DNA of 38,868 nt, taken from assembly GCA_016871775.1 (NCBI GenBank), contig VHCI01000020.1, positions 1 through 38,868 of the forward strand, given 5' to 3'. This document shows positions 30,750 through 34,140 of the stretch, piece by piece (within the stretch, counting starts at the first letter, position 1; each line of letters starts with the position of its first letter). The stretch comes from Verrucomicrobiota bacterium (lineage in GTDB: Bacteria; Verrucomicrobiota; Verrucomicrobiia; Opitutales; Opitutaceae). The position numbers and the translations under genes were made by a program. The notes beneath the pieces were generated by a model, which worked only from the letters and a program-made list of their open reading frames with translations, did no database searches and was not told the origin of the DNA.

Positions 30750-32114
30750 ATGCGCCCCGCCCCCCTCCTAGCCGCCCTCGCCACCTTCGCCCCCGCCCTC
30801 GCCGCCGCCCCCCACTGGCCCGCTTGGCGCGGCCCCGCCAACGACGGCACCGCCCCCGGCGCCACCCCGCCCCTCGTCTGGAGTGAAACCCGCAACGTCG
30901 CTTGGAAGATCCCCGTCGCCGGCCTCGGGTTTTCCACCCCGATCGTCTGGGGAGATCACCTCTATCTCCTCACGGCCGTCGAGACAACAGAGGAGAGCCC
31001 CGCCCGTAGCGCCGCCGCCGAGCCCGCCTCGCCGCCCCCGGGGAAGGGCCCCGGCCGCGACGGCAAGGGCAAGCGTGGCGGACCTCCGAGCTTCGGCGGC
31101 GGCCCCAACCCGACCCGCTTCCACGAGTTCAACATCCTCGCCCTCGACCGCGCCTCCGGCGCCACGGTCTGGCAACGCACCGCCCGCCGCGAGGTCCCCC
31201 ACGAGGGCAAGCACGCCACCAACAGCTTCGCCTCCGCCTCGCCGGTGACCGACGGCACCCGCCTCTACGCCTCCTTTGGGTCCCGCGGGATTTACTGCTA
31301 CGACCTGCAAGGGGAAAGGGTCTGGGAAAAGGACCTCGGCGATATGCGCACTCGCGGCATGTTCGGCGAGGGGGCCTCGCCCGCCCTCGCCGGGGACACG
31401 CTCCTCGTCACTTGGGACCACGAAGAGAACTCGTTCATCGTCGGTCTCGATGCCCGCACCGGGGCCGAGCGCTGGCGCCGGCCCCGCGAGGAGCGCTCGT
31501 CCTGGTCCACCCCCGTCATCGTCACGGTCGCGGGCCGGCTGCAGGCCATCGTGGCCGCCGCTGGCCGGACGCGCTGCTACGACCCCGCGACCGGCGAGGT
31601 GATCTGGGTGGCCGCCGGTCTGACCGAGAACGTGATTCCAACGCCGGTGATCGGCCACGGGATGGTCTACCTCGCAAGCGGTTTCCGCGGGAACGCGATC
31701 CAGGCGGTGAAGCTGACCGCGCGCGGGGACGTCACGGACACGCCCGCCGTCGTCTGGAGCGTGCGCAAGAGCGCGCCCTACGTGCCCTCGCCGGTGCTCT
31801 CGGGCGAGCGGCTGTACGTGGGCAAGAGCAATGACGCCTTCCTGTCCTGCCTCAACGCGCTCACCGGCGAGGTCCACTACCAGGACCAGCGCCTCGAGGG
31901 CGTCCGCGGGCTGTACGCCTCGCCTGTCGCCGCACGCGGGCACGTGTTCATCGTTGGCCGCGAGGGCACGACGCTCGTGATTCGCGATGACCCGCGCTAC
32001 GAGGTGATCTCCGCGAACGTGCTGGACGACCGCTTCGATGCCTCGCCCGTGATGCTGGGGCGCGACCTCTATCTGCGCGGTCATCGCCACCTGTACTGCC
32101 TGCGCGAGGGCTAA
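30750..32114 (+). CDS. Secreted PQQ-binding-like beta-propeller protein
   Basis: A 454-residue protein with a signal peptide (PLLAALATFAPALAAA) and repeated propeller blades: WPAWRGPANDGTAPG at the start, then LALDRASGATVWQRTA, CYDLQGERVWEKDL, GLDARTGAERWRRP, CYDPATGEVIWVAAG and CLNALTGEVHYQD, with the A-x-D-x-x-T-G-x-x-x-W pattern of PQQ enzyme repeats. Such proteins are common in Verrucomicrobia and Planctomycetes and mostly lack PQQ-dependent catalytic residues, so an enzyme activity is not implied. A low-complexity Pro/Gly/Lys-rich insert sits at about residues 85-122. It is divergent from the MFS gene, with the operator between. Confidence 0.85.
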   Translation: MRPAPLLAALATFAPALAAAPHWPAWRGPANDGTAPGATPPLVWSETRNVAWKIPVAGLGFSTPIVWGDHLYLLTAVETTEESPARSAAAEPASPPPGKGPGRDGKGKRGGPPSFGGGPNPTRFHEFNILALDRASGATVWQRTARREVPHEGKHATNSFASASPVTDGTRLYASFGSRGIYCYDLQGERVWEKDLGDMRTRGMFGEGASPALAGDTLLVTWDHEENSFIVGLDARTGAERWRRPREERSSWSTPVIVTVAGRLQAIVAAAGRTRCYDPATGEVIWVAAGLTENVIPTPVIGHGMVYLASGFRGNAIQAVKLTARGDVTDTPAVVWSVRKSAPYVPSPVLSGERLYVGKSNDAFLSCLNALTGEVHYQDQRLEGVRGLYASPVAARGHVFIVGREGTTLVIRDDPRYEVISANVLDDRFDASPVMLGRDLYLRGHRHLYCLREG

Positions 32115-32509
32115 GAACCGGATCCGGCTGATGCCTGCCGGGCTGCGCCGCGTCCGCCGCCTCCTCCTTGGCGAGAACGCCCCGGCCCGCTCGGCACGGA
32201 CCTTCGCGGAGTTGTTGACCATCCTTGCCTCGGAACTCGACGCTGCCCTGCGGGGGGCTGAACCCCGCCTCCGCGGCCCGCCGCCGCACCGGCAACATCT
32301 CCGCCCTTGTCGCAGGCCTCGTGATGCCGGGCGTTTTCGCCATTTGGCTCCGCGCCGGCGGCCGGAAGGACGGCTTTCGCCGCGTGCCGCGGTCGACCAA
32401 CGGTCTCCGCTGCGCCACCCCGCTCGCCCGCCTCCCCCTTTTCGCCGACCGAAGCCGGGCCGAAGTGCGCCGGCATCAATGCAAAGGTTTCATCAGCCCA
32501 CCGCCGGGC
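32115..32509. other. Spacer upstream of candidate small RNA
   Basis: About 395 bases with no supported gene. A short hairpin (GCGGGG at 32,250-32,255 with 32,263-32,268) may end the propeller transcript, although no U-run follows. Open frames on both strands read as Arg/Pro/Ala-rich shadow protein. Confidence 0.4.
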
Positions 32510-32525
32510 TGGCACGGAGGCTGCT
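32510..32525 (+). promoter_or_regulatory. Candidate sigma-54 (RpoN) promoter
   Basis: TGGCACG-GAGG-CTGCT matches the -24/-12 consensus TGGCACG-N4-TTGCW at all fixed bases except the first T of TTGC. GG (32,511-32,512) and GC (32,523-32,524) are ten bases apart, the required spacing. Transcription would start near 32,536, at the foot of the first hairpin. Confidence 0.55.
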
Positions 32526-32535
32526 TCATCGCTGA

Positions 32536-32640
32536 TGTCACCCGTGCAGGGTTAGGGTGACATCGCTCCGGCTGAGAAGCTGGAAGAGCAGAAAAAACTG
32601 GGGCCGGCGTTAAGGGGTTATCGCCGGCCCCTTCTGCTGC
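32536..32640 (+). ncRNA. Candidate structured small RNA with three hairpins
   Basis: About 105 nucleotides beyond the sigma-54-like promoter fold into three successive stems. Hairpin 1 pairs GATGTCACCC (32,534-32,543) with GGGTGACATC (32,555-32,564), 10 bp, loop 11. Hairpin 2 pairs CCGGCT (32,568-32,573) with AGCTGG (32,578-32,583) and closes with the GNRA tetraloop GAGA. Hairpin 3 pairs GGGGCCGGCG (32,600-32,609) with CGCCGGCCCC (32,622-32,631), and its base can extend through AGCAGAA (32,587-32,593) with TTCTGCT (32,632-32,638). No frame across it encodes a plausible protein. I know of no RNA family with this layout. The ends are estimates; a weak U-content follows hairpin 3 on this strand. 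Confidence 0.5.
32592..32631 (-). terminator. Intrinsic terminator of the TlpA-like gene
   Basis: On the minus strand the 10-bp GC-rich stem at 32,600-32,631 (12-base loop) is followed by AG and a run of six T (32,597 down to 32,592), a classic rho-independent terminator, 40 bases after the thioredoxin stop. The same stem could end the plus-strand RNA. Confidence 0.75.
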
Positions 32641-32670
32641 CCAGACACGTTGCAGGCCGCCCGGGACGGA

Positions 32671-33189
32671 TCACTTCAGGATCGCGAGGATCTTCTTCTC
32701 GTACTCGGCCGTCGCCATCATCCCCACTTTTTTGTCGCGGATGCGGCCGTCGCGATCGATGAGGAAGGTGGTCGGGATGCCCTCGACCCCGCCAAAGGCG
32801 GCCACCGTGGCGTCATCGCCCATCACGATCGGGTAGTTGATGCCAGACTTGGCAGCGAAGGGCCGCACGACCCCGGGACCGCCCTGGTCCAGCGAGATGC
32901 CGATGATGACGAGGCCGTCCTTGCCGTACTTCTTGGTCAGCTCGATGTACCCGGGGATCTCCTCTCGGCAGGGCGGGCACCAGGTGGCCCAGAAGTCGAT
33001 CACGACTACCTTACCCTTGAAATCGGCAAAGCGGACGGGGTTGCCGGCGACGTCCTTAAGGGTCCACGCCGGCGCCTCGCGGAGCAACGGCAGGGAGGCG
33101 CCGCCCTTGGCCGCGGCGAAGGCAGCGGGCAGCGCGCAGGCAAGGCCGGCGCAGGCGGCGAGGGCGAGGAGGGAGCGGGGGGTCTTCAT
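32671..33189 (-). CDS. TlpA-like periplasmic thioredoxin
   Basis: A 172-residue exported thiol-disulfide protein. It has a signal peptide (LLALAACAGLACALPAAFAA, cleaved near residue 27), AWTLKDVAGNPVRFADFKGKVVVIDFWATW, and the active site CPPC (Cys71 and Cys74) followed by REE, then the cis-Pro region GIPTTFLIDRDGRI. TlpA/ResA-type proteins reduce disulfides in apocytochrome c, CuA sites or other exported targets. It could serve the oxidase locus at 20-24 kb, but is not adjacent to it. An upstream TTG adds two residues; I chose the ATG at 33,189. The transcript ends at the strong terminator at 32.6 kb. Confidence 0.92.
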   Translation of the reverse strand: MKTPRSLLALAACAGLACALPAAFAAAKGGASLPLLREAPAWTLKDVAGNPVRFADFKGKVVVIDFWATWCPPCREEIPGYIELTKKYGKDGLVIIGISLDQGGPGVVRPFAAKSGINYPIVMGDDATVAAFGGVEGIPTTFLIDRDGRIRDKKVGMMATAEYEKKILAILK

Positions 33190-33240
33190 TGGCAATGGGA
33201 CAAGGAGGGAAGGGGGATTAGCGCCCGGCGCGAGCAGAGC

Positions 33241-34140
33241 TTAGCGCGCCGGTCCTTCCTGCAGGGTGAGGCCGAGCACCTCGATGAACTTCTTCATCGC
33301 CGGGGTAAGGACGCGCCCGCGCCGGTGCAAGATGGCGAGGGGACGGGTGAACTCCTTCCCCTCAAGGGGTACGACCGCGAGCGTGCCCTGCTTCTGCTCC
33401 TGCGCCACGGTCGCCAGCGGGACCACCGCCACGCCGTGGTCGATCTCCACCGCGCGCTTCACCGTCTCAATATTGTCAAACTCCATCACTGGTTCGAGCT
33501 CCAGCCGGTGGTCCCGGAAGATCGCGTCGACCGCCTTGCGCGTCGGGATGTCCGGGTCGAAGCCGATGAAGCGCTGCCCGGCGAGGTCCTTCACCTCCAC
33601 CTTCGCCCGCCGCGCCAGCGCGTGCTGGGGATGCGTGATCAGCACCAACTGATCATCTCGGAACGGTAGGATCTCGATCTGCCGCTGCTTCACCGGGAAG
33701 GCCACCAGGCCGAAGTCCACCGAGTTGTGCAGTAGATCCTCGTACACCAGATTCGAGCGCCGGTACTCCACCCGCACGTTCACCGAGGGGAAATCGTGCA
33801 GGAACCGCTTGATGAACGGCGGCAGCTCGTGGAGGCCGATCGAATAGATGGTCGAGATCCGGATCGTCCCGCTGATCACTTTCTTCATCTCCTGCAGCTC
33901 CGACTGCAGCTTATCGTAATTGTGCAAAATCTCCTTCGCCGCCTCGTACACCCGCTGCCCCTCCCGCGTCAGCTGGAACTGCTTTTGGCTCCGGTCAATC
34001 AGCAACGTCTTGAAGTGCCGCTCCATCGCCCGCGCCTGCTGGCTCACCGCCGATTGGGTGATGCCATTCAGCTTCGCCGACTTCGAGAAACTCCTAGTCT
34101 CGACGAGGTCCGCGAAGATTTTGAAGTTCTCAAGCTGCAT
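33241..34140 (-). CDS. LysR-family transcriptional regulator
   Basis: A 299-residue, full-length LysR protein. The winged helix-turn-helix is at residues 1-60 (NFKIFADLVETRSFSKSAKLNGITQSAVSQQARAME), followed by a linker helix and the effector domain (GTIRISTIYSIGLHELPPFI, VDFGLVAFPVKQRQIEILPF, GVAVVPLATVAQE). It resembles the CysL/CbbR branch; the inducer is unknown. It is divergent from yggS with 74 bases between, which contain a TTA-N11-TAA site. The thioredoxin gene lies 51 bases downstream on the same strand and could be read through. Confidence 0.92.
   Translation of the reverse strand: MQLENFKIFADLVETRSFSKSAKLNGITQSAVSQQARAMERHFKTLLIDRSQKQFQLTREGQRVYEAAKEILHNYDKLQSELQEMKKVISGTIRISTIYSIGLHELPPFIKRFLHDFPSVNVRVEYRRSNLVYEDLLHNSVDFGLVAFPVKQRQIEILPFRDDQLVLITHPQHALARRAKVEVKDLAGQRFIGFDPDIPTRKAVDAIFRDHRLELEPVMEFDNIETVKRAVEIDHGVAVVPLATVAQEQKQGTLAVVPLEGKEFTRPLAILHRRGRVLTPAMKKFIEVLGLTLQEGPAR

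Follow-up and report, generated by a model that had tools for sequence, protein, structure and literature searches.

Here, we analysed a 38,868-nucleotide stretch of DNA from a bacterium of the Opitutaceae (Verrucomicrobiota), referred to below as the window. In and around the spacer between a decayed gene and a convergent gene, the following features were recognised:

32219–32446, + strand: decayed remnant of a GH3-family gene (tblastn, 37–41% identity over 63–76 aa, E 1e-7 to 3e-7)
32510–32525, + strand: sigma-54 promoter, TGGCACG-N4-CTGCT (-24/-12), recognised by its sequence and by the same element in relatives
32534–32564, + strand: hairpin 1, 10 bp plus 2 below (RNA fold)
32567–32584, + strand: hairpin 2, 7 bp with a GAGA tetraloop (RNA fold)
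32586–32599, + strand: A-rich linker 5' of hairpin 3 (A-richness shared by 117 of 133 elements)
32600–32631, + strand: hairpin 3, 10 bp around a 12-nt loop (RNA fold)
32671–33195, - strand: convergent tlpA-like thioredoxin gene (Pfam AhpC-TSA/Redoxin)

The GH3 remnant is a C-terminal fragment with an LVMPGVF motif, whose intact relative at another locus (L132) is assigned to GH3 by Pfam. The promoter sequence, TGGCACGGAGGCTGCT (bases 32510–32525), has GG-N10-GC spacing and is close to the sigma-54 consensus. Transcription from promoters of this class starts approximately 12 nt after the GC, and with this spacing the start is predicted near 32536, in the first bases of hairpin 1. A search for rpoN gave a single Sigma54_DBD match in this genome (E 1.3e-56), and of 273 genomes of the order 245 have the gene. 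A consensus scan of positions 31500–33500, with loops limited to 3–8 nt, gave neither a sigma-70 promoter nor a terminator.

The fold energy of the element is -65.5 kcal/mol, in comparison to a mean of -42.6 for dinucleotide shuffles (z -6.23), and none of 200 shuffles folded as well. The conserved loop of hairpin 3, TTAAGGGGTTAT at 32610–32621, allows 3 further pairs, and an outer extension adds 7 more between 32587–32593 and 32632–32638. The original prediction, made from sequence alone, had claimed a TGGCACG-N4-CTGCT promoter with correct GG/GC spacing, a start at the foot of hairpin 1, and three hairpins, the second of 6 bp with a GNRA tetraloop and the third of 10 bp extendable by 7. Promoter and hairpins held, with hairpin 2 one pair longer than claimed and its GNRA loop being GAGA, and the fold bears out the extension of hairpin 3. 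The position of the start held in the window; its exact juxtaposition with hairpin 1 is not general, as in some other genera a leader of about 20 nt comes first (e.g., L100).

It had also been held that the evidence from this single locus is only fair, and this proved correct. The promoter pattern matched the genome 5 times on the forward and 0 times on the reverse strand, in comparison to 6 and 4 times for the reversed control pattern. As the pattern occurs at chance level, we rejected it as evidence on its own, and the support coming from one genome only remains fair.

Conservation of promoter and structure

The distribution of the element was assessed by DNA and covariance-model searches. 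A search with 151 bases of DNA found matches in 75 of 200 family genomes at E ≤ 1e-5 (own genome counted); the looser limit of E ≤ 0.1 gave 109 of 200, with numerous short chance matches among them. A covariance model of the RNA alone, built from 10 sequences (R1), matched 166 of 252 family genomes, covering 41 of 49 genera, and gave nothing in the other 86 genomes; some of its matches, e.g., in G006 and G049, rest only on a shorter sister copy, a form described below. Within the order, other families included, R1 matched 67 of 273 genomes.

A second model (R2), built from 17 sequences of the order, matched 83 of 387 phylum genomes: 37 family genomes, 21 other genomes of the order and 25, weakly, beyond the order. 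We read this as 37/37 family genomes and 21/26 others of the order, both figures being inferred from the kinship-ordered list of misses, which begins with five genomes of the order; the counts pool the longer and shorter forms of the RNA. The weak places beyond the order were taken as chance, the hairpin with the AGGGGU loop being absent from all 12 places read (11 of the 25 genomes). An exact 20-mer of hairpin 3 was found in 50 stretches of a collection holding one genome per species (84,980 species), and all 50 are titled Opitutaceae, Opitutae, Opitutia, Opitutus, Verrucomicrobia or Verrucomicrobiota.

The promoter lies outside both covariance models. The pattern TGGCA(C/T)(G/A)-N5-TGCT was found 91–111 nt 5' of the hairpin 3 core at 30 of 30 fetched loci, the window counted. 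For a wider comparison, hairpins were located by script. The first version failed at 15 of 87 loci; the wider run found the hairpin at 165 of 177 loci, 134 of them unique, and one was dropped for its short flank, which left 133 elements, sister copies included. The sigma-54 pattern was correctly placed in 106 of these 133 nonredundant elements, in comparison to 54 of 8614 control windows taken at random from the same loci. The 27 elements without it are mostly shorter copies or come from other families. It is this conservation across relatives that lifts the joint occurrence of promoter and hairpins above chance; the conservation and the promoter sequence are shown, and transcription from this promoter is inferred. 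No convincing activator site was found in a search for a shared one upstream of 76 nonredundant loci. In the upstream regions of three loci of one family (L118, L123 and L126) the -12 element reads GT, not GC, within TGGCAYG-N5-TGTT.

Covariation was assessed in alignments of relatives. Alignment A1, folded automatically, missed hairpin 1 owing to misaligned 5' arms. A2, which remedied this, was a trimmed, chosen subset (10 of 30 sequences) with the structure set by the analyst. Here, 3 of 7 pairs of hairpin 1 vary on both sides, and the covariation of hairpin 2 is mainly one-sided, with 92.5% of cells paired. For the whole structure, both-side changes occur in 13 cells, and none of 500 shuffles attained the covariation score. 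However, 73 of 500 shuffles had as many pairs with both-side changes (5), and 291 of 500 as many further pair types; since shuffles often reach those pair counts, hairpins 2 and 3 contribute little in A2.

Hairpin 3 was assessed in alignment A4, which comprised 17 sequences of the order with hairpins 1 and 2 left unpaired. In this alignment 8 of 11 stem pairs vary on both sides, and the covariation score was 0.480 versus 0.128, with 0 of 500 shuffles reaching it and every slid version scoring lower. Thus, the pairs of hairpin 3 change compensatorily, so that the stem is rewritten while the loop UU(A/U)AGGGGU is kept, and such a pattern across an order indicates a strong constraint on the loop. 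How universal the loop is, and how often pairs are broken, could not be measured with the hairpin-count scripts, which seek a GGGG loop and maximise pairing. Compensatory changes were found in both A2 and A4, and they make the element a conserved structured RNA.

The surroundings of hairpin 3 are also characteristic. At least six A were counted in the 14 nt 5' of its stem in the 117 elements noted above, and at least six T in the 14 nt 3' of it in 99 of 133. Such an A-rich 5' flank and T-rich 3' flank fit a terminator, and hairpin 3 likely serves as one; termination itself is inferred, and the T-run is poor in the genome of the window.

We also compared the RNA with known families, and it is not catalogued in Rfam 15. 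Neither the window nor any of 13 further loci (relatives and sister copies) gave a match at gathering, and 11 relatives gave none up to E 1; the best sub-threshold match of the element, at E 0.062, was far below gathering. The closest system in anatomy is Pxr of Myxococcus (RF01812), for which a predicted sigma-54 promoter and three stem-loops have been described (PMC5684412), the two traits common to both RNAs. However, there is no evidence of homology: the RF01812 model scored 12.6 bits on the window (gathering 80; E 4.5), and Myxococcus belongs to a different phylum. In the open-licence literature searched, we found no sRNA described for this order.

Neighbouring genes

Genes near the element were compared at 20 context loci from relatives, with their names taken from Pfam. 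A GH3-family gene was present at 11 of these loci, a tlpA relative at 10, and relatives of the window's LysR and alanine-racemase-like gene at 11. None of these four was found at the four loci examined from other families of the order (L143–L146). Since the neighbours vary between families, the RNA is not tied to any of them and looks free-standing.

One rival reading takes the element as part of a neighbouring mRNA (its leader or its 3' end) or as a short coding RNA. It is supported by the frequent GH3 gene, which mostly lies upstream in the same direction as the RNA (10 of 21 contexts). However, the element has a promoter sequence of its own, the neighbours change from family to family, and the stems change compensatorily. 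No conserved reading frame was noticed either, by reading without a dedicated coding test. We consider this reading very unlikely.

According to another rival, hairpin 3 merely terminates the convergent tlpA gene, with the remainder being unrelated. In its favour, the minus strand folds into the hairpin 3 stem followed by AGTTTTTT, just beyond the tlpA stop. Against it, the element and the best tlpA match are on separate contigs at three loci (L013, L014 and L026), and a tlpA relative is present in only half of the context loci and in 0 of 4 from other families. Moreover, a sigma-54 promoter at a nearly fixed distance, a conserved loop and hairpin 1 would all be superfluous for a terminator. 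This explanation is thus also very unlikely, and it remains possible that hairpin 3 on the minus strand could in addition end the tlpA-like gene. It seems that the element is, very probably, a real and conserved sigma-54-promoted gene for a structured RNA, with its transcription being inferred.

Shorter sister RNAs

Many genomes gave two to six covariance-model matches, a few of which are the same element read on the opposite strand. The sister copies thus revealed are shorter, about 84 nt, and lack hairpin 2; their common form is UUUUGGGGUAACUAAGAAAGC, followed by a hairpin with the loop CUUAGGGGUAG. The genome of the window has one such copy (G000:C80:5429-5511, L292, minus strand), which was detected only through the covariance models. 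A DNA search of this genome gave no further copy, the other matches being of 14–32 nt and at chance level. Tandem RNA copies within a few hundred bases of each other were seen in another family of the order (L115, 1501–1589 and 1667–1757; G298:C87; G336:C1).

The shorter copies also differ in their promoter. TTGAC stands at the position of a -35 box in 24 of 36 elements collected by a script for the shorter form, in comparison to 232 of 8560 control windows, and the sigma-54 pattern occurs in 6 of the 36, a set that includes a few elements of the sigma-54 form. These counts point to one loop under two promoter types. Thus, the existence of sister copies is shown, and the locus RNA likely belongs to a paralogous sRNA family as its sigma-54 branch, with the shorter branch mostly using TTGAC instead. 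Upstream of two copies (L421 and L238) TTGAC overlaps a sigma-54-like TGGCA-N7-GC box, as if such copies were switching promoter type.

The shorter copy of the window's genome directly precedes an EamA gene and diverges from a gene with an aminomethyltransferase domain. A relative of the latter was found near shorter copies at 13 of 20 loci, which indicates that one shorter copy has a conserved place; EamA was found at 1 of 20.

Sister sRNAs are known from other systems. Paralogues of Pxr have been reported (PMC5568312). GlmY and GlmZ of enterobacteria, like the locus RNA, are homologous sRNAs, and work on GlmY showed that one sRNA can be served by both sigma-54 and sigma-70 (PMC3162934). These two act on glmS via an adaptor protein and Hfq; unlike them, the locus RNA has no Rfam match. 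The Qrr1–5 sRNAs of Vibrio, which are sigma-54 dependent and use Hfq, resemble the locus family in the presence of several sister sRNAs per genome. However, Hfq was not found in relatives of the locus, and most of the shorter copies here have no sigma-54 pattern.

Possible mode of action

In the reading that we prefer, the locus is a free-standing gene for a sigma-54-dependent sRNA of about 105 nt, spanning about 32536–32640. Transcription by RNA polymerase, with RpoN and an unidentified enhancer-binding protein, would begin at the foot of hairpin 1, and hairpin 3 with its tail would end the transcript. The loop UU(A/U)AGGGGU sits on a drifting stem whose pairing is kept, and most likely the G-rich loops would base-pair or kiss with C-rich mRNA leaders and so block ribosome entry, without canonical Hfq. 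In the absence of transcript data we give this reading, mode of action included, a probability of roughly 0.62. The proposal of a regulated sRNA in the original prediction is supported, with sister copies, the conserved GGGG loop and the order-wide range added to it. Two of the three conditions under which it was to fall, a lack of compensatory changes and a lack of rpoN, did not hold.

The original prediction had also drawn an analogy to CrcZ of Pseudomonas, an sRNA which is transcribed from a sigma-54 promoter and sequesters Hfq with CA-rich repeats. This held only in part, i.e., for the promoter class: the locus RNA carries a GGGG motif, and a search for canonical Hfq, whose control rings in 5 of 14 known genomes, found none in 38 relatives (own genome counted). 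With canonical Hfq not found, a CrcZ-like Hfq sponge is unlikely.

The main rival is a protein sponge of another kind, in which the AGGGG motifs would hold an RNA-binding protein, as CsrB/RsmZ hold CsrA. The motif is indeed displayed in a loop, several sister copies per genome are common, and about half of the elements (65 of 133) have a further copy of the GGGGTAA type (GGGGUAA in the RNA) after hairpin 1. However, the core recognised by CsrA is GGA, from which AGGGG differs, and the loops do not show the repeated GGA motifs of CsrB/RsmZ-type RNAs, the hairpin 3 loops having AGGGGU. In the window's genus the first motif copy is degenerate and paired, lying inside hairpin 1 in the window's own genome, and the failure to find canonical Hfq in the relatives likewise speaks against a sponge. 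CsrA was outside our searches, and we regard the sponge as unlikely.

Coming back to pairing with mRNA, we searched for the target motif TACCCCWAA, the complement of the two G-rich motifs; it suits the sister RNA and the wider family more than the own loop of the locus RNA. The genome of the window has 7 sites, 2 of them inside the sister RNA. A rhodanese gene has one site 10 nt before its ATG, where 13 nt are complementary to the sister RNA loop, and the gene of a TonB-receptor plug protein has another 15 nt before its GTG. These two make up 2 of the 5 sites outside the sister RNA, and both products look exported by eye.

In relatives, 9 of 74 sites lie 2–25 nt before an ATG with an open frame, in comparison to 101 of 2715 composition-matched controls (p 0.002) and to 0 of 48 in a further control of small size. 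The test was framed post hoc, with the sites already seen, and several of the nine frames look spurious. Three cases are plausible, namely a TonB-receptor plug protein, a family 2 glycoside hydrolase and a ubiquitin-like domain protein, whose N-termini look signal-like by eye. The 74 sites were drawn from 160 in 21 genomes. Copies of the sister RNA were removed by hand (one of those, L336, is possibly no such copy, and is near no start), and the sites of G012, most of those of G078, part of those of G048 and G018 and a few others were also left out.

The near-start rate did not rise with the length of complementarity, being 2 of 11 for sites with at least 12 paired nt and 10 of 77 overall. The motif is not enriched in whole genomes either, with 7 sites versus 15 for the reversed pattern in the window's genome and varying results in relatives. 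Pairing with C-rich mRNA leaders is thus our best guess, inferred from weak and post hoc evidence. We lean towards the view that the G-rich loops act in trans on mRNAs, which is an inference, and we are more hesitant about envelope and exported proteins, outer-membrane proteins among them, being the main targets, which is likewise inferred and which we would rather doubt than assert.

A bolder reading, which we hold only tentatively and for which the odds seem somewhat unfavourable, is that of an order-wide set of sister sRNAs, missing from Rfam 15, that would adjust the amounts of envelope and exported proteins through a single GGGG loop code and without canonical Hfq, the members with this shared loop being split between regulated sigma-54 promoters and housekeeping promoters of the TTGAC type. 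The locus offers a handle on sRNA regulation in bacteria without recognisable Hfq and on sigma-54 control in Verrucomicrobiota, and a sigma-54 member beside sisters that differ in promoter can serve to test if promoter swapping rewires one targeting sequence. At one locus of a relative (L373, 614–1210, + strand), the gene of a ubiquitin-domain protein (Pfam E 2.8e-26) that looks exported has TTACCCCTAA directly before its start.
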